IMG/VR virus record: IMGVR_UViG_3300047476_001570
Location: 1-38,234 of that record
Strand: one strand, 5' to 3'
DNA: 38,234 nucleotides
Source: a virus
The notes under the pieces were generated by a model, which did no database searches, had not been told where the DNA came from, and was given only the letters and a program-made list of their open reading frames with translations. This document shows, piece after piece, positions 18,802 through 36,288 of this stretch. The translations under genes and the position numbers were made by a program. The first letter of the stretch is position 1. Every line of letters starts with the position of its first letter.

Positions 18802-18996
18802 ATGTTAAAAGTTAATATCGATAGTAAACAAAATTTGGAGAAAGCACTTAAGGTCCTTAAGGGTAAAGTAATCAAAACGAAACAAAATGAAAAGTTACGT
18901 GAGAGATTAGAATTTGAGAAAAAAAGTGTCTGGAAAAGAAACCAAAAATTGAAAGCAAAATACGTTCAATCTCAAAAGGACCAAGACGATAAGTAA
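18802..18996 (+). CDS. rpsU: Ribosomal protein bS21 homologue
   Basis: 64 residues, the usual length for bS21. The pattern matches Bacteroidota bS21: a short N-terminal strand (MLKVNID), the helix NLEKALKVLKGKVIKTKQNE (11-30), the invariant-type LRERLEFEKKSVWKRNQKLK (32-51), then a basic tail AKYVQSQKD. bS21 sits on the 30S platform next to the anti-Shine-Dalgarno end of 16S rRNA; in Bacteroidota it helps hide that end. Some phages carry bS21 and are thought to place it in host ribosomes. This is the only plus-strand gene within the late head module, has its own host-type -7 box, and its end is two bases from the convergent 209-residue gene. Confidence 0.75.
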   Translation: MLKVNIDSKQNLEKALKVLKGKVIKTKQNEKLRERLEFEKKSVWKRNQKLKAKYVQSQKDQDDK

Positions 18997-25976: not shown

Positions 25977-27232
25977 AGAACTTCACCCTTTGGAGTTACT
26001 CTGATTTGTTCTCCGTTGTGTTCAAACACCAAGTTACTCTTGTTTGTTTTACCAACGAGTTTATAGTTTGAATTTTCTCTTACGATAAATTCAGCAGCTA
26101 ATTCTTGTTCGATAGTCTCTGAAAGTCTTTTAATTGAGCTAACAGCAACTTTTTTTGATTCGTTCAATTTTTGTTTCTTTTCTTTCTTTTCAGATTCTGT
26201 TACTTGAAAATAAGAAGTCAAAACTTTATCAACTTTTGATTCACTGAAAATTTCATCCATCATTGAAGTGATTTTTGAATGAACAACATCTTCTTCAGAC
26301 ATTTCACTTTCCATATCATCACCTTCATACATTTCACTTTCAACAGGTTCTTCCATATCCATATCCATATCCATGTCCATATCCATGTCCATATCTTCTT
26401 CATCATCCATTGAACCCATATCCATATCTGAATCGTAACCAGACTCAGAGTCTTCTTCAAATTTTGCCATGATATCTTCTTGGTCTTCTTCATCAAGTTT
26501 GCTCAAATCCAATGCTGACAATAATGAATTTATTACATACTTAACATCTTCAGAAGTCATTCCAACTGAATCATTCATCATTCTGATTTTTTGACCCAAT
26601 TTACCTGTAAGTTTTTGAATTGTTTTGAAAGTAACTTCCTCTTCCTCACCACCCATTGGTTCCTCTTCAGCACTCATATCAACATCCATATCACCTTCAG
26701 GTGTATCAAGGTCCATATCCATATCCATTTCTTCACCACCATCAAGTGATGCGTCATCTAATGGAGCGTCCATTGAACCAGCCTCAGGTGCTGCTGGAGG
26801 TGTTGGAAGTTCGGGTGCCGCTTCAGGTGCTGGTGCGGGCATCGCTGGTTTAGGAGTCTTTAATGTAAATTTTTTTTGTTCACCTAAATTGAACATAGAA
26901 ATTTCTTCTTCACTTTCAGTTAGTCTGTTTACCTCACCGGCAATCAAATTTAATCTCTTAAGAGCCGCACCATATGAACTATAGAACTTTCTATTTTTCA
27001 TTGGTTCAATGTACTCTAAAGATTCATTGACATTTTTCTTTATTACGTAACCAGATTTTTCTTTTACGATTTCGTACTGATTTCCGTCAGCTAATACTTT
27101 TTCAAACTCAACCCTTGAAGTTTCATTCAAGTTTGATGGTGTGTTCTCTTTGTATCTTGCGATTTCAAGAATTCTGTTTATCTTTTCTTGTCCTTGAAGT
27201 TTTTCACTTCCTATTGGTTTTAAGTCAGCCAT
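25973..27232 (-). CDS. Acidic Met-Asp-repeat protein, possible second scaffold/core protein
   Basis: 419 residues, family unknown. Residues 1-120 are mixed alpha/beta; a Pro/Ala linker (TPKPAMPAPAPEAAPELPTP) follows, then an acidic region rich in Met-Asp (GGEEMDMDMDLDTPEGD; later a run of seven Asp-Met pairs at about 280-294). Helical segments (LTGKLGQKIRMMNDSVGMTS; INSLLSALDLSKLDEED) separate the acidic parts, and the C-terminal 100 residues are basic helix then beta. The layout (helix, Met/Asp acid region, basic end) parallels the scaffold at 15557-17167, which is the reason for the core-protein suggestion. There is no TATTTAT element before the start; it may be read through from 28090. Confidence 0.55.
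   Translation of the reverse strand: MADLKPIGSEKLQGQEKINRILEIARYKENTPSNLNETSRVEFEKVLADGNQYEIVKEKSGYVIKKNVNESLEYIEPMKNRKFYSSYGAALKRLNLIAGEVNRLTESEEEISMFNLGEQKKFTLKTPKPAMPAPAPEAAPELPTPPAAPEAGSMDAPLDDASLDGGEEMDMDMDLDTPEGDMDVDMSAEEEPMGGEEEEVTFKTIQKLTGKLGQKIRMMNDSVGMTSEDVKYVINSLLSALDLSKLDEEDQEDIMAKFEEDSESGYDSDMDMGSMDDEEDMDMDMDMDMDMDMEEPVESEMYEGDDMESEMSEEDVVHSKITSMMDEIFSESKVDKVLTSYFQVTESEKKEKKQKLNESKKVAVSSIKRLSETIEQELAAEFIVRENSNYKLVGKTNKSNLVFEHNGEQIRVTPKGEVL
26352..26393. repeat. Hexanucleotide tandem repeat encoding Asp-Met pairs
   Basis: Seven tandem copies of TCCATR (plus strand) with only A/G changes at the last base. On the coding strand they specify Asp-Met pairs in the acidic protein. Such tracts expand and contract by slippage. 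Confidence 0.85.
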
Positions 27233-29203: not shown

Positions 29204-29656
29204 TTAGGGTTTCATTTTTCGTAATTGGTCTCGAAGTTCAATTGCTTTTTCAAAGTCTTGTTTTTCGATACATTCTTTTAGTTCGTCTTCAACTTTTTTG
29301 ATTTCCTCTTGGTCTCTTTCGAAGTTTTTGATTTTGTCTCTCAAATAAATTGCCAAATGGAAATCTTCTTTTTCAACAGCTTTGTCAAGTTGTTGTTTTA
29401 ATGATTCTAAAGAACTTTCATTCTTCTTTTGTTTTTTAGGTGAACCCATAGAACCTGTGGTTACAATGTAAGTAATTCTACCATCAGGAGATGAAAAGGT
29501 TTCTTTTTCCCAATCCATACCTTCGTGGGTACCAGTTTCAGTTTTACGTTCCAATGAACTTCTGAAGTTAGGGTCAAATTCACCAAACATTTCGTTAATT
29601 TCATCCATCATCTGTTTAAGAGATTTTCTGTTGTTGTTTCCAAATAAGTCAAACAT
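29204..29656 (-). CDS. Twin UVR-motif protein, possible ClpC partner
   Basis: 150 residues. The C-terminal half has two UVR (UvrB/UvrC) motifs: LKQQLDKAVEKEDFHLAIYL (86-105, then RDKI) and LKECIEKQDFEKAIELRDQL (126-145). UVR motifs are helical hairpins that pair with other UVR motifs; they occur in UvrB, UvrC, the ClpC middle domain and ClpC partners such as McsA. The N-terminal half (MFDLFGNNNRKSLKQMMDEI; TFSSPDGRITYIVTTGSMGS) has one small beta region and no Cys, so the McsA zinc fingers are absent. The gene is divergent from a ClpC-like gene that itself carries a UVR-like stretch, hence the adaptor suggestion (inference). A TATTTATG element lies 38 bases upstream. Confidence 0.68.
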   Translation of the reverse strand: MFDLFGNNNRKSLKQMMDEINEMFGEFDPNFRSSLERKTETGTHEGMDWEKETFSSPDGRITYIVTTGSMGSPKKQKKNESSLESLKQQLDKAVEKEDFHLAIYLRDKIKNFERDQEEIKKVEDELKECIEKQDFEKAIELRDQLRKMKP

Positions 29657-29681
29657 ATTTTTTTATTTTAGTTTTTTTGTT

Positions 29682-29702
29682 TATCTTTGTAAAACATAAA
29701 TA
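29682..29702. promoter_or_regulatory. Divergent promoter elements upstream of the UVR gene
   Basis: The minus strand has TATTTATG at 29695-29702, 38 bases before the UVR gene start. The plus strand has TATCTTTG at 29682-29689, a host-type -7 box without a clear TTG; it would read through a six-codon ORF (MPNQLL, from 29711) towards the Clp gene. Confidence 0.35.
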
Positions 29703-29726
29703 CAAAATTATGCCAAATCAATTATT

Positions 29727-29762
29727 ATGACATATTGTCATATACTAATGACAAATTGTCAG
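29727..29762. promoter_or_regulatory. Tandem palindromic operator upstream of the Clp promoter
   Basis: ATGACATATTGTCAT (29727-29741) is a perfect palindrome around a three-base centre, and ATGACAAATTGTCAG (29748-29762) is a second copy with one outer mismatch. The copies are 21 bases apart, two helical turns, on the same face of DNA. They end two bases before the -33 TTG of the Clp promoter. This is the layout of a dimeric repressor or activator site; the regulator is not in the window. Confidence 0.6.
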
Positions 29763-29764
29763 TA

Positions 29765-29794
29765 TTGGTTTTTGGTAAAGAAGTTGTATATTTG
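29765..29794 (+). promoter_or_regulatory. Host-type promoter of the Clp gene
   Basis: TTG at 29765-29767 and TATATTTG at 29787-29794 are 19 bases apart, a full match to the Bacteroidota consensus. Transcription should start near 29800, about 15 bases before the ATG. Confidence 0.8.
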
Positions 29795-29815
29795 TAACAT
29801 AAATAAAAAACGACT

Positions 29816-31810
29816 ATGATAGATTCTATTGATAACAACGAAGGTACACAGAAGTCAAAACGTAAATCAGGTGGAACTCCTGTTTTAGATAACTTCTCAA
29901 AGGACCTAATCAAAATGGCTGCCGAGGGTAAATTGGACCCTGTGATTGGTAGAGAGATGGAAATTAATCGTATTGCCCAAATTCTTTCTCGTAGAAAGAA
30001 AAACAACCCAATCATCATTGGTGAACCAGGTTGTGGTAAAACAGCGATTGTGGAAGGTCTTGCCATGAAAATTTACAACGGGGATTGTCCTCGTAACCTA
30101 AAAGACAAACGCATTGTTCTTTTGGACTTAACATCAATTGTTGCTGGTACAAAGTATCGTGGACAATTTGAAGAACGTATGAAAGTGATTATTGAAGAGT
30201 TGAGTGAGAATCCTGACATTGTAATCTTCATTGATGAAATCCACACATTGGTAGGTGCTGGTAATTCATCAGGTTCAATGGACGGTTCAAACATTTTCAA
30301 ACCAGCTCTTGCTCGTGGTGAAATCCAATGTATCGGAGCAACCACTTTGGATGAATACCGTACAAACTTTGAAAAGGATGGAGCTCTTGAGCGTCGTTTC
30401 CAAAAGGTTGTGGTTGATTCTCCAAATAAAGAAGAAACCCTGAAGATTATTACCAACGTAAAAGACAAGTATGAAGAATACCACAAAGTAACATATTCAC
30501 CTGAAGTATTGGAAATGTGTGTGAGCTTGGCTGACCGTTATATCACTGACCGTGAGTTCCCTGATAAAGCATTTGACATCATGGATGAGGTTGGTGCTCG
30601 TTCTCAGGTGGAAGTTAAAGTTCCTGAATCAATTGAAATTCTACGTCAAAAGGCTAAAGAACTTCAACAACAAAAAATCAATGTTGTTAAATCTCAACAA
30701 TTTGAAGAAGCTGCAGCAATTCGTGATAAAGAAAAGAAATTGTTGGACCGTTTGGAACTTGAAAAGAGAAAGTTTGAAGAAGAACAAGCGGCAAACCGTA
30801 AAGAGATTGACCCTGAGTTGGTATTAACGGTTGTATCTTCAATGACCAAGATTCCTGTAAACAAATTGTCTACTGATGATAAAACATCTTTGGTTGGTTT
30901 GGAAAAATCTTTACAACAAGATGTAATTGGACAAGAAGAAGCGGTTACCAAAATTGCCAAAGCAATCCGTAGAAATCGTTTGGGTATCAAAGACCCGAAT
31001 AAACCAATCGGTTCGTTCATCTTCTTGGGTTCAACAGGTGTGGGTAAAACTCACTTGGCAAAACAATTGGCTAAACAAATCTTTGGTTCGGTGGATAATC
31101 TTATCCGTGTGGACATGAGTGAGTACCAAGAGAAACATACCATCTCTCGTTTGATTGGTTCCCCTCCAGGTTATGTGGGTTATGAAGAAGGGGGACAGTT
31201 AACCGAACAGGTTAAGAACAAACCTTACTCTGTAATTTTGTTTGATGAGGTTGAGAAGGCAAACAAAGAAATCTTCCACACACTTCTTCAGATGTTGGAT
31301 GAGGGTCACCTTACCGATTCTTTGGGTAGAAAAATTAACTTCAAGAATTGTTTGATTATTATGACATCAAACATCGGGGTCAAGAAACTTCAAGATTTTG
31401 GAACAGGTATTGGTTTCTCAAGTAACGCATATTCTAACGAAGAGCAGAAAAAAGAAATCTTGAAGAAGGAAATGAAAAACTACTTCTCACCTGAGTTCTT
31501 GAACCGTATTGATGATACAATCGTGTTTAATTCTTTGACTGAAGAATCCATCAAACAAATTGTTAATATTGAATTGACAAAATTGATGAAACGTTTGGGT
31601 GAATTGAAACTTGTATTCAAGTTTGATGATAAGTTGGTATCTCACATTTCCAAAGTTGGTTTTGATGATACCTACGGAGCACGTCCAATCAAAAGGGCTA
31701 TTCAGGACCAAGTTGAAGATTTGATATCAGAAGAAGTCCTTAATGGGAATGTGGTTGAGGGTAAACAATATACCCTATCAATCAAGACTGATAAAGTGGT
31801 AATTAAATAA
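29816..31810 (+). CDS. ClpC-type AAA+ unfoldase lacking the N domain
   Basis: 664 residues with two AAA+ modules. D1: GTPVLDNFSKDL (20-31), Walker A GEPGCGKT (69-76), Walker B IVIFIDEIHT (135-144). Middle domain (270-330) short, as in ClpC, with a UVR-like stretch KSQQFEEAAAIRDKEKKLL (292-310). D2: Walker A GSTGVGKT (405-412), Walker B ILFDEVEKA (474-482), and GTGIGFSS (529-536), the IGF/VGF loop that docks ClpP. ClpC proteins are normally 810-860 residues; the missing part is the N-terminal substrate/adaptor domain. No clpP is in the window, so it would use host ClpP or act alone. Arg codons are often CGT, unlike the AGA-rich neighbours, which suggests later acquisition from a bacterium. Confidence 0.88.
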   Translation: MIDSIDNNEGTQKSKRKSGGTPVLDNFSKDLIKMAAEGKLDPVIGREMEINRIAQILSRRKKNNPIIIGEPGCGKTAIVEGLAMKIYNGDCPRNLKDKRIVLLDLTSIVAGTKYRGQFEERMKVIIEELSENPDIVIFIDEIHTLVGAGNSSGSMDGSNIFKPALARGEIQCIGATTLDEYRTNFEKDGALERRFQKVVVDSPNKEETLKIITNVKDKYEEYHKVTYSPEVLEMCVSLADRYITDREFPDKAFDIMDEVGARSQVEVKVPESIEILRQKAKELQQQKINVVKSQQFEEAAAIRDKEKKLLDRLELEKRKFEEEQAANRKEIDPELVLTVVSSMTKIPVNKLSTDDKTSLVGLEKSLQQDVIGQEEAVTKIAKAIRRNRLGIKDPNKPIGSFIFLGSTGVGKTHLAKQLAKQIFGSVDNLIRVDMSEYQEKHTISRLIGSPPGYVGYEEGGQLTEQVKNKPYSVILFDEVEKANKEIFHTLLQMLDEGHLTDSLGRKINFKNCLIIMTSNIGVKKLQDFGTGIGFSSNAYSNEEQKKEILKKEMKNYFSPEFLNRIDDTIVFNSLTEESIKQIVNIELTKLMKRLGELKLVFKFDDKLVSHISKVGFDDTYGARPIKRAIQDQVEDLISEEVLNGNVVEGKQYTLSIKTDKVVIK

Positions 31811-31838
31811 AAAATGGGGTCAATGACCCCATTTTTTT
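31811..31838 (+). terminator. Terminator of the Clp gene
   Basis: AAAATGGGGTCA (31811-31822) and TGACCCCATTTT (31824-31835) form a long stem followed by eight T, directly after the stop codon. Confidence 0.85.
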
Positions 31839-31858
31839 TATAAAGTTATAAGCATAAA

Positions 31859-31880
31859 AAAAGGGTCGTTAGACCCTTTT
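31859..31880 (-). terminator. Terminator of the peptidase gene
   Basis: AAAAGGGTC (31859-31867) and GACCCTTTT (31872-31880) with a four-base loop; the minus strand continues in T. It insulates the two convergent genes. Confidence 0.8.
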
Positions 31881-31883
31881 CTT

Positions 31884-32711
31884 TTATACATACCATCTAC
31901 TTTTCATGAATTCTTTATCAAACTCATATTCATGTTTTTCATATCCAAGTTTTTCAATCATGGCATATGCTGTTTTGATTGAGTTTTCCAAATCGTCCAC
32001 AATGATATATTCACTTGGTCTGTGGTAGTTGTAATAACCACAAGAAATGTTGATACAAGAGAAATCAAATTTCATCTTCAACTGAGATACATCAGTGTAG
32101 GGGTGAACCATGTATTGACGAGTTGGCATATACTCTTCCAACACTTTATCTACAATATTAAAGAACTCACTATCACGGTTAAACAAACGTACACCAGAAC
32201 AAACCTCAGTAACCATGTAGTTTTCGGGTGCGTCTAATTGGATTGCGTAAGCAACATCACCAAAGAAATTTGGGTCGGCTTTACGAGAACCCCAACATCC
32301 TGTTTCTTCACTTACAAAAAATGCCGCCTTAACGTGTGGTAAATCCAAAAGTGCCGACATTGCACCAAACACACCACATTTGTCATCACCACCAATACCA
32401 GTTTGTTTACCATCGGTTGTATAACCCTTAAGTGCGACTTTAAGGTTGCCTTCATAATCCGGTAAAGTTTCTGTGTGAACCACAATTTCATTCATACCGT
32501 GTACTGTATCGGTATGAGCAACCATACATGGGTAAAGTTTTCCTTCAAAACCTTCACTGGTTTTGGTTGCATAAATGTTCATCATTTCATCCACAACAAA
32601 TGGGATGTTATTTTCTGTAAGCCACTTGGAAATAAATTCCACCATATATTCTTCATGGTACGTGGCAGTTGGAACGCTGAGAACTTGTTCGAGTAAATCT
32701 AATCTATTCAT
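31884..32711 (-). CDS. M20-type zinc peptidase (peptidase T-like)
   Basis: 275 residues starting at the ATG at 32711; the longer frame to 32732 begins with TTG inside the promoter -7 box. Metal and catalytic residues fit the M20/M28 zinc aminopeptidase pattern: MVAHTDTVHG (63-72, H66 and catalytic D68), GIGGDDKCG (105-113, bridging D109/D110), FVSEETGCWG (132-141, general base E135 and ligand E136), IQLDA (157-161, D160). A His near 205 (HPYTDVSQL) may be the dimerisation-type His. Cytoplasmic, no signal. It is shorter than peptidase T (about 408), as if lacking the dimerisation domain. It is driven by its own host-type promoter and is convergent with the Clp gene, so it could finish off peptides released by Clp proteolysis (inference). 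Confidence 0.78.
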   Translation of the reverse strand: MNRLDLLEQVLSVPTATYHEEYMVEFISKWLTENNIPFVVDEMMNIYATKTSEGFEGKLYPCMVAHTDTVHGMNEIVVHTETLPDYEGNLKVALKGYTTDGKQTGIGGDDKCGVFGAMSALLDLPHVKAAFFVSEETGCWGSRKADPNFFGDVAYAIQLDAPENYMVTEVCSGVRLFNRDSEFFNIVDKVLEEYMPTRQYMVHPYTDVSQLKMKFDFSCINISCGYYNYHRPSEYIIVDDLENSIKTAYAMIEKLGYEKHEYEFDKEFMKSRWYV

Positions 32712-32718
32712 TGTACCA

Positions 32719-32748
32719 CAAAGATACAACAAATTTTTTACTTATCAA
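32719..32748 (-). promoter_or_regulatory. Host-type promoter of the peptidase gene
   Basis: On the minus strand TTG (32748-32746) and TATCTTTG (32726-32719) are 19 bases apart. The -7 box is seven bases before the ATG at 32711, so the message has almost no leader. The -33 box overlaps the end of the upstream gene. Confidence 0.75.
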
Positions 32749-34550
32749 AAAAGTTGTAGATTATAAATAAAATCTTTGAATTTTTCAAATGGTAATCTCA
32801 TTTTTTTGAACTTTCCTGGGTCTTCCACATTTTGTATTCCAAATGTTACTCTATCATCTTCCATATCCAAATCGGTAATTTTTATATTATATCTATCATC
32901 ACCTGGCATTACAAACCAATTATCAAACCCACCCAACTTTTTAATAAAATCGTAATGGTCAATATAATCACCTGACAAATTTTCATTCTCATTAATAAAC
33001 TCTTCCATATTATCTAACAACCTTTCAATTGCGTTGTAGGTATTGGTGTATTCATGGTCTGAACTTCTAAATTCATAAATATTATCAGCAATTTCTGGTG
33101 GTTGAATACCCTCAACCTGAACAATTTTTCTTAATAAACCATGAATTGTTAAATTAAAATTTGGATTATATTTCTTATAGGTGTTTATAAGGTTATCCAA
33201 ATTAACTTGTTTTCTATAGAAAGTTCCAGTCATTGGTAATCCGTATTCCGCAAATATATTAGTATAATTATTTTCCAAATAGTCTATAATACTTCGTTCA
33301 GTATCTTGGTTCATATCATATGTATATTCTGAAATAATATTACTAACTTCCCTATCAAATGATACACTTAAAAATTCTGCAACTTGTGGACCACATTTAT
33401 CATCGTAGTTACGATTTTTTAATTCTAATGAACATTCGTACAACTTTGGGTTAATAATCTTCATATATTTTTGAAGTCTAACCATTTGTTCATCATCAAA
33501 ATTACTAAACATATAACCTTCTTTCCAATCTTCTTCAGCAGTGTATTCATCAAAATAATCACCTGAACTGTATGATGATAACGCCATATCCAAATACATT
33601 CTATCACCATCACCCTCGTTCCAATCAAATATATCAAAATAATCTTGATTTCTAAGATTAAAATCTAAGTTTAAGGTGACATTGTCATCACTATCTCTAT
33701 CGTAACTATATATTAGTGGGTCAACAGTATCGGCGTTCCATCTTGAAATGGTTCCGTTTTTAATATCTTCAAACCCCGTTTTTACTTTTCCACCACCCAA
33801 TATTTTTTCGTAAACAAAATCCTCCACTTCAGGATAAACATGGTATAAAAAATCTATTGAGTGTTCTTTATCGGCAGCGTCAAATACACTTGGGTCTCTA
33901 TCTTTAACATATAAAGCAACTTTTTGTCTTCTATTTGATTTATCAATAAAATAATAAAGTTTTCCTTCTTTGGTGTACTTGTTAAAATAATCAGGTTGTT
34001 GACCTGCGGTACACCAACGAGTTCCCGCACCAAAATAACAAGATGCGTTATGTGTTAAGGCTCTAATCACCAATACATCCCCACTTTCAAACACTCTGTC
34101 AGCTTGTTTTTTGGCCTCACGTTCTTGTTCCTTTTTAGATGAAATTATCGATAAGGCTTGTGTTAAATAACCCAACGTACTTAGATTGTATGAATTAATA
34201 TCTTTGGGGGCTTTCATTACTGAATCCAATTTTGGAAATGCTCTTGATTCAACACCATCCCACAATTGTTTAACAGAACCTATTACTTCAGGTGTAATTC
34301 TGTCATTGTATTTGGAAAATAATTTAAGTCGGCTTATTAATAGATTGATAAATTCATCAATACCCATAGTTTGGTCAATCAAATATTTTCTGGTTTCGTT
34401 CTCAACAAATTGAATAAACTTGGTTCCCAAACTTGACGTAGCATCAAAAATTTTGTCAATCATCTGACCATCATCAGAAGATGTAAACATTTCTTTTACC
34501 CTTTTGATGGCATCTTCTTTCTTACCTTCCTGTAAAAATATTTTGTACAT
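32745..34550 (-). CDS. Large WCTA-motif protein of unknown function
   Basis: 601 residues. A central module (about 160-220) contains SCYFGAGTRWCTAGQQPDYF (170-189), then KEGKLYYFIDK and QKVALYVKD. I have seen the GTRWCT-type motif in large uncharacterised proteins of T4-like phages, but I do not know a function. The N terminus, MYKIFLQEGKKEDAIKRV, is a short amphipathic helix with L-Q-E followed by Gly at 6-9, like the prohead cleavage sites of other proteins here. The C-terminal half is acidic, aromatic and helical without known motifs. A TATTTATA element four bases before the ATG places it in the late class. A packaged internal protein is the favoured inference. Confidence 0.6.
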   Translation of the reverse strand: MYKIFLQEGKKEDAIKRVKEMFTSSDDGQMIDKIFDATSSLGTKFIQFVENETRKYLIDQTMGIDEFINLLISRLKLFSKYNDRITPEVIGSVKQLWDGVESRAFPKLDSVMKAPKDINSYNLSTLGYLTQALSIISSKKEQEREAKKQADRVFESGDVLVIRALTHNASCYFGAGTRWCTAGQQPDYFNKYTKEGKLYYFIDKSNRRQKVALYVKDRDPSVFDAADKEHSIDFLYHVYPEVEDFVYEKILGGGKVKTGFEDIKNGTISRWNADTVDPLIYSYDRDSDDNVTLNLDFNLRNQDYFDIFDWNEGDGDRMYLDMALSSYSSGDYFDEYTAEEDWKEGYMFSNFDDEQMVRLQKYMKIINPKLYECSLELKNRNYDDKCGPQVAEFLSVSFDREVSNIISEYTYDMNQDTERSIIDYLENNYTNIFAEYGLPMTGTFYRKQVNLDNLINTYKKYNPNFNLTIHGLLRKIVQVEGIQPPEIADNIYEFRSSDHEYTNTYNAIERLLDNMEEFINENENLSGDYIDHYDFIKKLGGFDNWFVMPGDDRYNIKITDLDMEDDRVTFGIQNVEDPGKFKKMRLPFEKFKDFIYNLQLF

Positions 34551-34554
34551 TTCT

Positions 34555-34562
34555 TATAAATA
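34555..34562 (-). promoter_or_regulatory. Putative late promoter element TATTTATA (minus strand)
   Basis: On the minus strand TATTTATA lies four bases before the ATG at 34550. It sits back to back with the host-type promoter of the exported-protein gene, whose -33 TTG starts at 34564. Confidence 0.55.
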
Positions 34563-34563
34563 G

Positions 34564-34594
34564 TTGTGTAGATTAAAAAATGGTTGTATATTTG
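34564..34594 (+). promoter_or_regulatory. Host-type promoter of the exported-protein gene
   Basis: TTG at 34564-34566 and TATATTTG at 34587-34594 are 20 bases apart. The ATG at 34616 is 21 bases after the -7 box. The leader has AAAGGAAG about eight bases before the ATG, an unusual Shine-Dalgarno-like sequence for this window. Confidence 0.75.
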
Positions 34595-34615
34595 TATAAG
34601 AAAGGAAGACAAACT

Positions 34616-35038
34616 ATGAAAAACATCATCACCACCATCGCAATGTTCATCTTGACTATCACCGCTCAAGCACAAACCATCACTACTGATTCTTTTTATC
34701 AGTTCACTCACGATACTACCATCTCAACTTTTGACGCATCTGAGAAAAACCAATGTAAAAATATTGGTTGGGTTGTTGGAAAAACTAAGTATGAGATTTT
34801 TGAAGATAGTAAGACTATTATTATCACCTACGTTAAAGATGGTGTTGAGACTGTAAACTACTTGGCGGTAACTAAAATTGTCAAAGAGGGTGTTGCAAAA
34901 CAATACTATGTAAGTACTGAAGATGGTTTTAATGGTGATATCATCTTGACTAAAGATGCTGACCACAAACAAGATATGGTTGTTTCTCGATACATTCTTG
35001 ATGGGAAAATGGTTGTAAATGAATCATACGTTAACTAA
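34616..35038 (+). CDS. Exported protein of unknown function
   Basis: 140 residues from the ATG at 34616; the longer frame from 34580 would start inside the promoter. The N terminus MKNIITTIAMFILTITAQAQ is a clear signal peptide (n-region KN, hydrophobic core, AQA cut before Gln). The mature part is a small beta-rich domain (YEIFEDSKTIIITYVKDGVE, KQYYVSTEDGFNGDIILTKD) with a single Cys and no lipobox. It would be periplasmic or cell-surface. Expressed from a host-type promoter and closed by a terminator, it is a single-gene unit, so a function in host cell modification such as superinfection exclusion is possible. Confidence 0.7.
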   Translation: MKNIITTIAMFILTITAQAQTITTDSFYQFTHDTTISTFDASEKNQCKNIGWVVGKTKYEIFEDSKTIIITYVKDGVETVNYLAVTKIVKEGVAKQYYVSTEDGFNGDIILTKDADHKQDMVVSRYILDGKMVVNESYVN

Positions 35039-35056
35039 CCAAAAATACCGTAAAAT

Positions 35057-35085
35057 AAAAAAGGGACTATTAAGTCCCTTTTTTT
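35057..35085. terminator. Bidirectional terminator
   Basis: AAAAAAGGGACT and AGTCCCTTTTTT flank a four-base loop (35069-35072), with T runs on both sides. It ends the exported-protein gene (+) and the gene at 35107-35823 (-). Confidence 0.82.
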
Positions 35086-35106
35086 ATTATTTATATTTTT
35101 TTACAA

Positions 35107-35823
35107 TTATGAATATTGAACACCTAAATCATCCAAATATTCTTTAGCCATTGCTCTAACATTTTCACCTCTAGCACCATAAGCTGTCAATCCTTGAAGA
35201 GCTTTGTCATATCCGTAATTCATAATACTTTTGATTCCTGTATATAATGCATTCATAGCAGCACTATTAGCGTTACTACCAGTACCCATTATGTTAGTAG
35301 CATTTGGTGTGTCAGGAGTAATTGTTGACAAATCAACAACACCAGCCATCTTACCATAAGATGTGTTTAATAAAAATTTAACAACTTTGTCATACTTTGC
35401 AGAATCATTTTGTGTTCTCAAAAAAGCCATTTGACCTGTTTTAGGGTCTTTTGAAGGTGTTGGAAATGAACTTTGTACTTTAGATACAATTGCTTGGTCT
35501 ACTTTTGGTTTTCCCATTACATTTGATTGAGGAGCAACTTGGGTTCCCATAGCCTGTTCTTTAGTTTCCATTTTTTTAATTTTCAAACCATTTTGTTCAC
35601 CACCAAAGGCAACACCCATGTATTGTTCTTCAATAACACGTTTTACGATTTTTTCTAAATCAGATTCAGTTAATTTGATTACTTTTTTCATATCTTCTTT
35701 TTTTGTTTTATCTTCTTTTATTGAAGAAACAGGTTTTTTATTTTCATATAAATTTTTTGCAGTCTCATGAAGATTCAAAATTCTATTTTTTTCGTCCTCA
35801 TTCAATAAAATTGATTTTTTCAT
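35107..35823 (-). CDS. Putative packaged internal protein with two targeting-like helices
   Basis: 238 residues starting at the ATG at 35823. An earlier ATG at 35835 abuts the TATTTATA element, and the open frame beyond it overlaps the tmRNA, so I reject both. The N terminus (SILLNEDEKNRILNLHETA, then KNLYE) is followed by KVIKLTESDLEKIVKRVIEE (about 47-66, before Gln), nearly the same helix as in the 155-residue protein at 11228 and ending in an I-E-E site. KKMETKEQAM follows, a motif shared with the scaffold. The C-terminal domain (150-238) is Ala/Gly/Asn-rich helix (NSAAMNALYTGIKSIMNYGY), not recognised. The pattern suggests head-targeted cargo processed by the prohead protease. Confidence 0.6.
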   Translation of the reverse strand: MKKSILLNEDEKNRILNLHETAKNLYENKKPVSSIKEDKTKKEDMKKVIKLTESDLEKIVKRVIEEQYMGVAFGGEQNGLKIKKMETKEQAMGTQVAPQSNVMGKPKVDQAIVSKVQSSFPTPSKDPKTGQMAFLRTQNDSAKYDKVVKFLLNTSYGKMAGVVDLSTITPDTPNATNIMGTGSNANSAAMNALYTGIKSIMNYGYDKALQGLTAYGARGENVRAMAKEYLDDLGVQYS

Positions 35824-35835
35824 ACTTATTTTCAT

Positions 35836-35843
35836 TATAAATA
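35836..35843 (-). promoter_or_regulatory. Putative late promoter element TATTTATA (minus strand)
   Basis: On the minus strand TATTTATA lies 12 bases before the ATG at 35823. It is back to back with the tmRNA promoter (TTG at 35845). Confidence 0.55.
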
Positions 35844-35844
35844 G

Positions 35845-35875
35845 TTGTATAGTTAAAAAAGTATATTTATATTTG
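35845..35875 (+). promoter_or_regulatory. Host-type promoter of the tmRNA gene
   Basis: TTG at 35845-35847 and TATATTTG at 35868-35875 are 20 bases apart. Transcription should start near 35881, about 15 bases before the mature 5' end. Confidence 0.78.
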
Positions 35876-35895
35876 TAGAAAGTTCTTTGAATTAT

Positions 35896-36276
35896 GGGGA
35901 TGACATGGAATCGACAGGTATTGTTGATTGATGGATGCACGTATGAGCTGAAATAACTCATTAAAAACTGGTTCGAAAAATTAGACGGCAACGTTTTAGA
36001 CAAAATGGCGACTATCGGTTTAATCCGTGAAAACGCTTCTGTAGTAGCCTAATCGCTATTACAACTCAGGTCGGGAGACATTAACCTAGGAACAGAAGTC
36101 TTTAGAGGTGTGGTTTCTATCTTAAAAGAAACAAGTGGAGGATTAGTTCTCAGTAAACCGAACCACTATAAAATAAGGGAATTGTGAATTTCGGAGTGTT
36201 AGCAAACACTGACCTAAACGTGTAGTATCTATCGGTTGAGGTAGTCTGGACGAGGGTTCGATACCCTCCATCTCCA
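35896..36276 (+). ncRNA. ssrA: Transfer-messenger RNA (tmRNA)
   Basis: The acceptor stem GGGGATG (35896-35902) pairs with CATCTCC (36269-36275), discriminator A at 36276; the genome continues CTA, so CCA is added after transcription. GGAATCGACAGG follows the 5' stem, as in tmRNAs, and the T arm is GAGGG-TTCGATA-CCCTC. The resume codon is GGC at RNA position 92, preceded by TTAGAC (E. coli: TTAGTC, then GCA at 90). The tag frame has 21 codons and ends at TAA (36050-36052): it starts GNVLDK and ends RENASVVA. Normal tags end LAA. tmRNA rescues stalled ribosomes and marks the product for proteolysis. It has a host-type promoter and a terminator of its own. Confidence 0.93.
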
Positions 36277-36288
36277 CTAAAAACAAAT

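Follow-up and report, generated by a model that had tools for sequence, protein, structure and literature searches.

Bacterial ClpC–ClpP, operating with ssrA tagging, brings together a peptide tag, an unfoldase that carries a GxGF loop and a ClpP with an intact catalytic triad. Here we describe a comparable set in a lineage of phages, found by following up the virus record IMGVR_UViG_3300047476_001570, a linear fragment of 38,234 bases that was analysed in full and is referred to below as the window. Its last part holds a transfer-messenger RNA (tmRNA), a ClpC-type unfoldase, a twin-UVR protein and an M20 peptidase; all four had been pointed out in a preliminary description of this DNA, and all four proved to be real, at or very near the positions then assigned. 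The likeness to the bacterial system has limits, in that bacterial ClpC possesses an N-terminal domain and the bacterial tag has nine residues, whereas the phage unfoldases lack this domain and the phage tags run to 21 or 22 residues. As argued below, the lineage may carry its own equipment for ribosome rescue and protein disposal.

tmRNA genes are already known from phages. The Melnitz paper (PMC9004378) counts tmRNA in 402 of 18,146 phage genomes and already proposes that host proteins are tagged for recycling; its main text makes no mention of ClpP, and the available part links no unfoldase or peptidase to the tmRNA. The same holds for linked unfoldases and peptidases in the available part of a mycobacteriophage paper, which gives an older list of phage tmRNAs (PMC4131195). 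Huge phages with tmRNA and SmpB (PMC7162821) have their tmRNA within a translation-related repertoire, as here; those tmRNAs were called by ARAGORN, and Clp is absent from the main text.

Two groups of phages resemble the window in their wider gene content. Large phages of freshwater Bacteroidetes that encode ribosomal protein bS21 have this gene opposite the terminase, portal, protease and capsid genes, like the window, and the corresponding paper names a Clp protease, chaperones and Hsp20; tmRNA does not appear in its main text, and the available part does not link Clp to a tmRNA or a tag (PMC9723584). The moraphages, large aquatic phages related to the T4 group with predicted Bacteroidota hosts, some of them with HSP20, have VOG02072, a Clp ATPase, and VOG18190, a putative peptidase, among their core genes; a table lists the two, the available text does not treat them as a set, and the main text has no mention of tmRNA (PMC12619734); their likeness to the window rests on gene content and not on a tree. 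Within the open-licence literature, so far as its texts were available, we found no paper that treats tmRNA, unfoldase, ClpP and tag together for this group of phages; the preliminary description had remarked that tmRNA and Clp genes are known singly and that such a set is not known to have been described.

Results

A Phage tmRNA with a Long Tag

The tmRNA gene lies at 35896–36279 on the plus strand and is matched over its full length by Rfam family RF00023 (112.5 bits; cut-off 47). Rfam alignment and comparison with relatives place the tag reading frame, GNVLDKMATIGLIRENASVVA followed by a stop, at 35987–36052 on the same strand; translation resumes at GGC 35987 and yields a tag of 21 residues that ends in RENASVVA. 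This ending had been proposed as a non-standard tag, which is correct as far as the end of the tag is concerned, the whole tag being the 21-residue peptide. RENASVVA as the entire tag was rejected on two counts. Bacteroidota tmRNAs resume at the same position of the molecule (base 93–101, as read by ARAGORN, and base 90–97 in 53 of 53 distinct phage tmRNAs), and conserved residues are found throughout the 21-codon frame.

The phage sequences come from relatives sought with the unfoldase, the UVR protein, the M20 peptidase and the terminase, the best 80 matches of each large search being kept. Records were thus picked by a match to Clp, M20, terminase or UVR, and the counts given here and below do not describe a random sample. 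The tmRNA alignment comprises 61 sequences, 53 of them distinct; further tmRNAs that were listed without a locus, 11 from a first batch of records and five from a second, stand outside it.

The tag has 21 residues in 45 of the 53 distinct tmRNAs and 22 in the other eight. It ends in VA (34), AA (seven), GA (five), TI (three) or otherwise (four). Twenty Bacteroidota genomes served as stand-ins for hosts; tmRNA is present in every one, and the 19 that ARAGORN reads have nine-residue tags, all of the form GxxxYA[LM]AA. This YA[LM]AA ending is absent from all 53 phage tags, so that the dissimilarity to Bacteroidota extends to every distinct tmRNA of the collection.

The entropy of the tag frame is highest at the third codon position (1.28 vs 0.84 and 0.66), and the ratio of nonsynonymous to synonymous polymorphism (pN/pS), determined for 38 distinct 21-codon frames with the eight 22-residue tags excluded, is 0.63 in frame and 0.83 and 0.93 in the shifted frames. 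Because third positions are the most variable and pN/pS is lowest in frame, the tag frame is, to judge by its pattern of substitution, under selection as protein, with a contrast that is moderate, probably owing to sequences near saturation. Among the 38 frames, G11 is invariant, and G1, L12 and A21 are nearly so. In addition, all 53 distinct phage tmRNAs have G-U, the alanine identity element, as their third acceptor pair.

ARAGORN found no tmRNA in the window and detected one in 13 of the 56 phage loci given to it, out of 61 tmRNA loci then collected; its 13 calls give a tag of 21–22 residues in seven cases, one of eight residues in four (L268, L275, L276 and L302) and an implausible one in two. 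The program was therefore dropped as a detector and, because it misses most of the tmRNAs here, phage tmRNAs have probably been undercounted wherever a survey relied on it.

A promoter-like site of the pattern TTG-N17..22-TAnnTTTG precedes the tmRNA at 35845–35875 on the plus strand, and sites of this kind lie within 100 nucleotides upstream in 36 of the 53 distinct phage tmRNAs, the window's included (0.8 expected). Similar sites precede Clp (TTG...TATATTTG, 29765–29794, plus strand) and the M20 peptidase (32719–32748, minus strand), where host-type promoters had indeed been proposed for all three genes. The pattern occurs 14 and 9 times on the two strands of the window, with 4.4 expected per strand, and for this reason a single site taken on its own is weak evidence of a promoter. 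The shuffles behind these expectations, and behind those for the dyads below, preserve first-order base composition only.

Some further features of the region were observed. An GTTCTTTGA element lies at 35882–35895, directly 5' of the tmRNA, and, of the 53 distinct phage tmRNAs, 36 have TTNTTTGA within the final 30 bases before them, where 0.8 would be expected; the element resembles the boxA antiterminator of ribosomal RNA leaders. In nine loci (L265, L272, L289, L292, L296, L297, L298, L303 and L310) a block ACAGGGG(GC)GAAAGTG, with slight variants, replaces the usual promoter-like site, and for the five of these given to Rfam (L265, L289, L292, L303 and L310) the tmRNA was the sole match. 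SmpB was ruled out as a member of the set, being present in two of 50 records (L318 in G019 and L317 in G002); in G019 its gene lies about 0.5 kb past the tmRNA on the opposite strand.

A Phage ClpP in Most Relatives

A ClpP gene is present in 27 of 50 records (172–198 bits). It lies downstream of Clp on the same strand in 26 of the 32 records that offer at least 29.6 kb of room, at distances of 15.7 to 46 kb (median 22.7 kb), and the Ser-His-Asp triad is intact in 26 of 26 proteins. These 26 phage ClpPs form one clade (support 100/96) apart from 21 bacterial sequences, in a tree that carries a long-branch warning for L463 and for the L472 pair, is arbitrarily rooted and leaves out the ClpP of G043, a record without Clp. 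In G020, a close relative whose Clp is 96% identical to that of the window, ClpP is encoded 22.6 kb downstream; the window ends 6.4 kb past Clp, short of the place where the gene would be expected, so that its absence there is uninformative. Most of these phages carry their own protease, and a redirection of host ClpP is then no longer required. The preliminary description had put such a redirection at its centre, and with relatives as close as G020 encoding ClpP themselves this part of it is not supported.

The ClpC-Type Unfoldase

The unfoldase gene (29816–31810, plus strand) encodes 664 residues. By profiles and structure matches, the protein comprises two AAA domains, a D2-small domain and, in its middle region, a UVR motif (residues 279–309) that passes the Pfam UVR threshold narrowly, at 21.7 bits vs 21.5. 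ClpC is its best match among solved structures; the middle region aligns with ClpC 6em8, and the alignment begins at ClpC residue 150. No Clp_N domain was found among the matches listed (25 of 43 families). The median number of residues before the DPVIGR motif is 41 in 81 phage proteins vs 210 in 80 bacterial ClpC proteins, nearly all of them from Bacteroidota by title; both medians exclude motif-less proteins. The protein is thus predicted to be an AAA+ unfoldase of ClpC type and, because the N-terminal Clp_N domain is missing, is not called ClpC itself. The earlier description of a ClpC-like unfoldase with a ClpP-docking loop holds, with the correction that the N-terminal domain of ClpC is lacking.

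The docking loop, GTGIGF, is encoded at 31400–31417 (plus strand) and aligns with the docking position, as had been suggested from the window alone. By pattern, GxGF is matched by 72 of the 81 phage unfoldases and by all 80 of the bacterial proteins, the other nine phage proteins being pattern-negative. Walker motifs, arginine fingers and pore loops are kept in 80–81 of the 81 phage unfoldases.

A Probable Shared Control Region for the Unfoldase and Its Divergent Neighbour

Divergent from Clp, at 29204–29656 on the minus strand, lies the gene for the twin-UVR protein (150 residues; Pfam UVR in two stretches, 53.4 bits). Between the two genes are two exact copies of an operator-like dyad without strand, TGACA-N3-TGTCA, at 29728–29740 and, 21 bp from the first, at 29749–29761; they are the only exact copies in the window.

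In 75 loci that hold Clp together with the next conserved gene, KTSC, the slot divergent from Clp is occupied by a UVR gene in 38 (by profile search), by an Hsp20 gene in 16 and by another small gene in 13, and is empty in eight. UVR and Hsp20 genes never share the slot (0 of 75), and Hsp20 was confirmed by Pfam in the four proteins given to it. The UVR protein, counted as part of the set at the outset, is accordingly present in the window and in about half of these loci without being a fixed member.

The dyad follows the occupant of the slot. An exact copy is found in 35 of 38 UVR loci, in eight of 16 Hsp20 loci and in none of the 21 loci whose slot is empty or holds a different gene; with up to one mismatch allowed, the counts are 38 of 38, 14 of 16 and 0 of 21. 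It should be noted that the eight empty-slot loci leave scant room for a promoter, so that the absence of a dyad there says little, and that the Fisher test of dyad against slot gene ignores the kinship of the loci. Within 400 bases upstream of Clp, 56 exact dyads occur in 33.6 kb, and none in the remaining 1.36 Mb of the loci. Across the 50 whole records there are 53 exact dyads vs seven of a reversed control pattern; 37 of these dyads, from 29 records, are situated at Clp. Since the dyad accompanies UVR and Hsp20 and is missing from the other slot loci, it is very probable from these patterns that the UVR protein or Hsp20 shares a regulator with the unfoldase. The link between the UVR protein and Clp drawn in the preliminary description thus gains a divergent promoter region with operator-like dyads, and this shared region is the best evidence here for the UVR protein as a putative partner of the unfoldase.

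The dyad was rejected as an operator of bacterial clpC, with no exact copy within 300 bases upstream of 78 bacterial clpC genes. Secondary dyads in L502 and L516 fall inside reading frames and are probably due to chance; L518 has one ahead of and one within a small reading frame. The UVR protein was also considered as McsA and rejected, since the NCBIfam equivalog scores 36.1 bits vs 210 and the protein, with one cysteine, lacks the CxxC zinc motifs of McsA. Its predicted structure is weak (predicted local distance difference test, pLDDT, 65.9; predicted template modelling score, pTM, 0.34), and for this weak model no PDB entry matched at an E value of 0.001 or lower.

The M20 Peptidase and the Conservation of the Set

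The M20-type peptidase, of about 275 residues, is encoded at 31884–32711 on the minus strand, within an open reading frame that extends to 32732 (PF01546, 33.8 bits vs 24.6). The TTG start of this frame falls within the promoter-like site, for which reason translation probably begins at the internal ATG at 32711. The Pfam score bears out the peptidase named in the preliminary description. H73, D75, D116, E142, E143, D167 and H237 are kept in 93–99% of 75 proteins of the group (median length 277 residues) and presumably have roles of the metal-binding type. Peptidase T (PepT) was rejected as its identity, the NCBIfam score being 39.1 bits vs 255 and the phage protein shorter; its residues 159–212, about 53, replace some 168 of peptidase T (1fno and 1vix together).

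M20 lies downstream of Clp, within 3.8 kb, in 66 of 66 loci with at least 2.5 kb of room, out of 80. The first batch of 50 whole records consists of 48 from among the longest plus two shorter ones from close relatives; 47 of them carry Clp, and 41 have a tmRNA that exceeds the Rfam cut-off. In the second batch of 50, counted irrespective of the room downstream of Clp, 35 have such a tmRNA. Where at least 5.6 kb are available, the tmRNA is downstream of Clp on the same strand in 40 of 43 records, with a gap of 921–5934 bases. A tmRNA profile of our own, built from many of the same phages and used with a 30-bit limit, has a match in every one of the 50 Clp loci that offer 6 kb of downstream sequence and recovers the tmRNA in the Rfam-negative records G022, G028 and G039 (L037, L050 and L057). 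At 95% identity, the 80 Clp loci and the window fall into 64 groups; at 95% Clp identity, the 50 loci of the tmRNA test make up 42 groups and the 66 loci of the M20 test 55.

Co-occurrence in relatives, which had been suggested as a check, therefore holds for tmRNA, ClpC-type unfoldase and M20 peptidase together. Because the terminase and neighbouring genes keep their order too and the records were picked by Clp, M20, terminase or UVR, most of them by Clp or M20, this co-occurrence amounts to shared descent plus retention in one lineage and not to repeated independent assembly.

The lineage probably infects Bacteroidota. The window has T4-type head genes (portal, terminase, major head protein and head maturation protease), and a bS21 gene sits amid them on the opposite strand, at 18802–18996 on the plus strand (PF01165, 27.3 bits vs a cut-off of 27). 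Between M20 and the tmRNA, at 32745–34550 on the minus strand, is a gene for a 601-residue protein of unknown function (phrog_17056), whose closest counterparts at the other Clp loci mostly share 21–38% identity with it, and 73% in L002.

Partial Counterparts in Other Phages

Beyond this lineage, Callevirus offers the nearest parallel. The cultured Cellulophaga phage phi38:1 has a tmRNA at 26803–27164 on the minus strand of NC_021796.1 (locus L407) that is not annotated in the record, where the small annotated reading frames gp041 and gp042 overlap it; the record of Calle_1 annotates its tmRNA, and the Calle_1 paper, in the part available, counts one (PMC8776804). In both phages the tmRNA is 1.3 kb from an M20 peptidase, and the phi38:1 tag read by ARAGORN has 22 residues, ends in EVAVGV and is unlike those of Bacteroidota. 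A ClpP search of phi38:1 gave no match, and no unfoldase is found among its annotations. Callevirus thus shares with the window lineage a tmRNA, its M20 neighbour and a long tag, and differs from it as an unrelated podovirus-like phage with no ClpP match and no annotated unfoldase. We regard it as one partial independent case, in which a long-tag tmRNA stands near M20 without ClpP.

M20 matches extend to at least 24 records. Those searched for tmRNA come from phages of Enterococcus, Brevibacillus and Bacillus, and all four (Jenst, EF1, FADO and H1) are without a match, on which ground M20 with tmRNA was rejected as a general phage pair. Long tags may well be widespread among the tmRNAs of phages. 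Read by eye with the same resume rule, the tags of two huge phages seem to have about 24 residues (L409 in LR756504) and about 35 (L408 in LR756508); the tag of LR756511 called by ARAGORN, ANPEFAMAA, is bacterial-like.

Discussion

A simple model would have this large phage lineage carry its own set for ribosome rescue and protein disposal. Judging from its conserved parts, the tmRNA would be charged with alanine by the host, would use host SmpB in most of these phages, and would enter ribosomes stalled on broken mRNA, add the tag of 21–22 residues and free the ribosome. Because the Bacteroidota ending (Y-A-L/M-A-A) has been lost, the tag should be a poor substrate of host proteases. It would most likely be read by the phage unfoldase, which would pass the chain to the phage ClpP encoded downstream; the UVR protein or Hsp20 may act as a substrate-handling helper under the unfoldase's switch, and the M20 enzyme may trim the released peptides. 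We hold this model, with its steps as proposed, tentatively and at somewhat under even probability. A stricter version is possible but doubtful. It posits a parallel phage path of tagging and degradation, in which a phage-specific degron of 21 residues is read exclusively by the phage ClpC-type unfoldase and ClpP, with a swappable co-regulated helper and the M20 peptidase; if it were true, infected cells could rescue ribosomes and recycle amino acids independently of host proteases.

Several observations weigh against the model. That the tag is a degradation signal read by the phage ClpC-type unfoldase is a step that we infer, and the tag ending, variable among the 53 distinct tmRNAs, is loose for a strict degron. 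ClpP was not found in six records that extend 30 kb or more beyond Clp (G010, G019, G030, G036, G045 and G047) and are possibly incomplete, and SmpB is as scarce as described above. Callevirus combines tmRNA and M20 without ClpP. Conversely, the huge phages LR745206 and LR756502 have related ClpC and ClpP and no tmRNA over the cut-off, in a search with stricter filters that lose weak matches, and LR756508 has a tmRNA together with a related Clp and a weakly matching ClpP (57 bits), all three separated by tens to hundreds of kb. Finally, the terminase and KTSC genes also keep their order in the lineage, so that the linkage may reflect descent.

The last point leads to the first of two rival explanations that remain serious, namely that tmRNA and Clp machinery serve different purposes and lie side by side through common descent. 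Together with the UVR protein or Hsp20, Clp would then be a stress-controlled disaggregase, or else a general protease for virion assembly and host take-over, and the tmRNA would merely rescue ribosomes. Gene order conserved across the whole region fits this explanation, as do the huge phages and Callevirus, in which one half occurs without the other or unlinked to it; moreover, the loci contain no exact dyad outside the Clp upstream region, and there is none at the tmRNA of the window. Against it, all 50 of 50 loci retain the tmRNA downstream of Clp while the intervening genes are poorly conserved: among 250 loci, 16 have P152 and 30 have P298, compared with 191 that have Clp, not all of the loci reaching far enough. 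On balance we consider separate jobs rather unlikely.

The second rival takes the long tag to be something other than a degradation signal, which would free ribosomes and hide the chains from host ClpXP or mark them for another fate. Changes in the last residues stabilise tagged proteins in E. coli, and the YA[LM]AA ending seen in 19 of 20 Bacteroidota genomes is gone from the whole phage collection. Yet the same phages keep an unfoldase and usually ClpP, and the retention of a mostly hydrophobic end together with G11 and L12 goes beyond mere loss of a signal; we judge this second rival improbable. Redirection of host ClpP by the phage unfoldase, as first proposed, could draw on the conserved docking loop and on the six relatives without ClpP, but is very unlikely given that 26 of 32 records with room, G020 included, encode a ClpP of their own, which has diverged as a separate clade.

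If the model of a phage-borne rescue and disposal set is true, widespread aquatic phages would bring both halves of trans-translation, tagging and disposal, with a tag code of their own. The old question of what phages need a tmRNA for could then be put to the test, along with a possible co-evolution of tag and unfoldase into a private code, and the phages would provide a new pair of tag and protease for controlled protein degradation.

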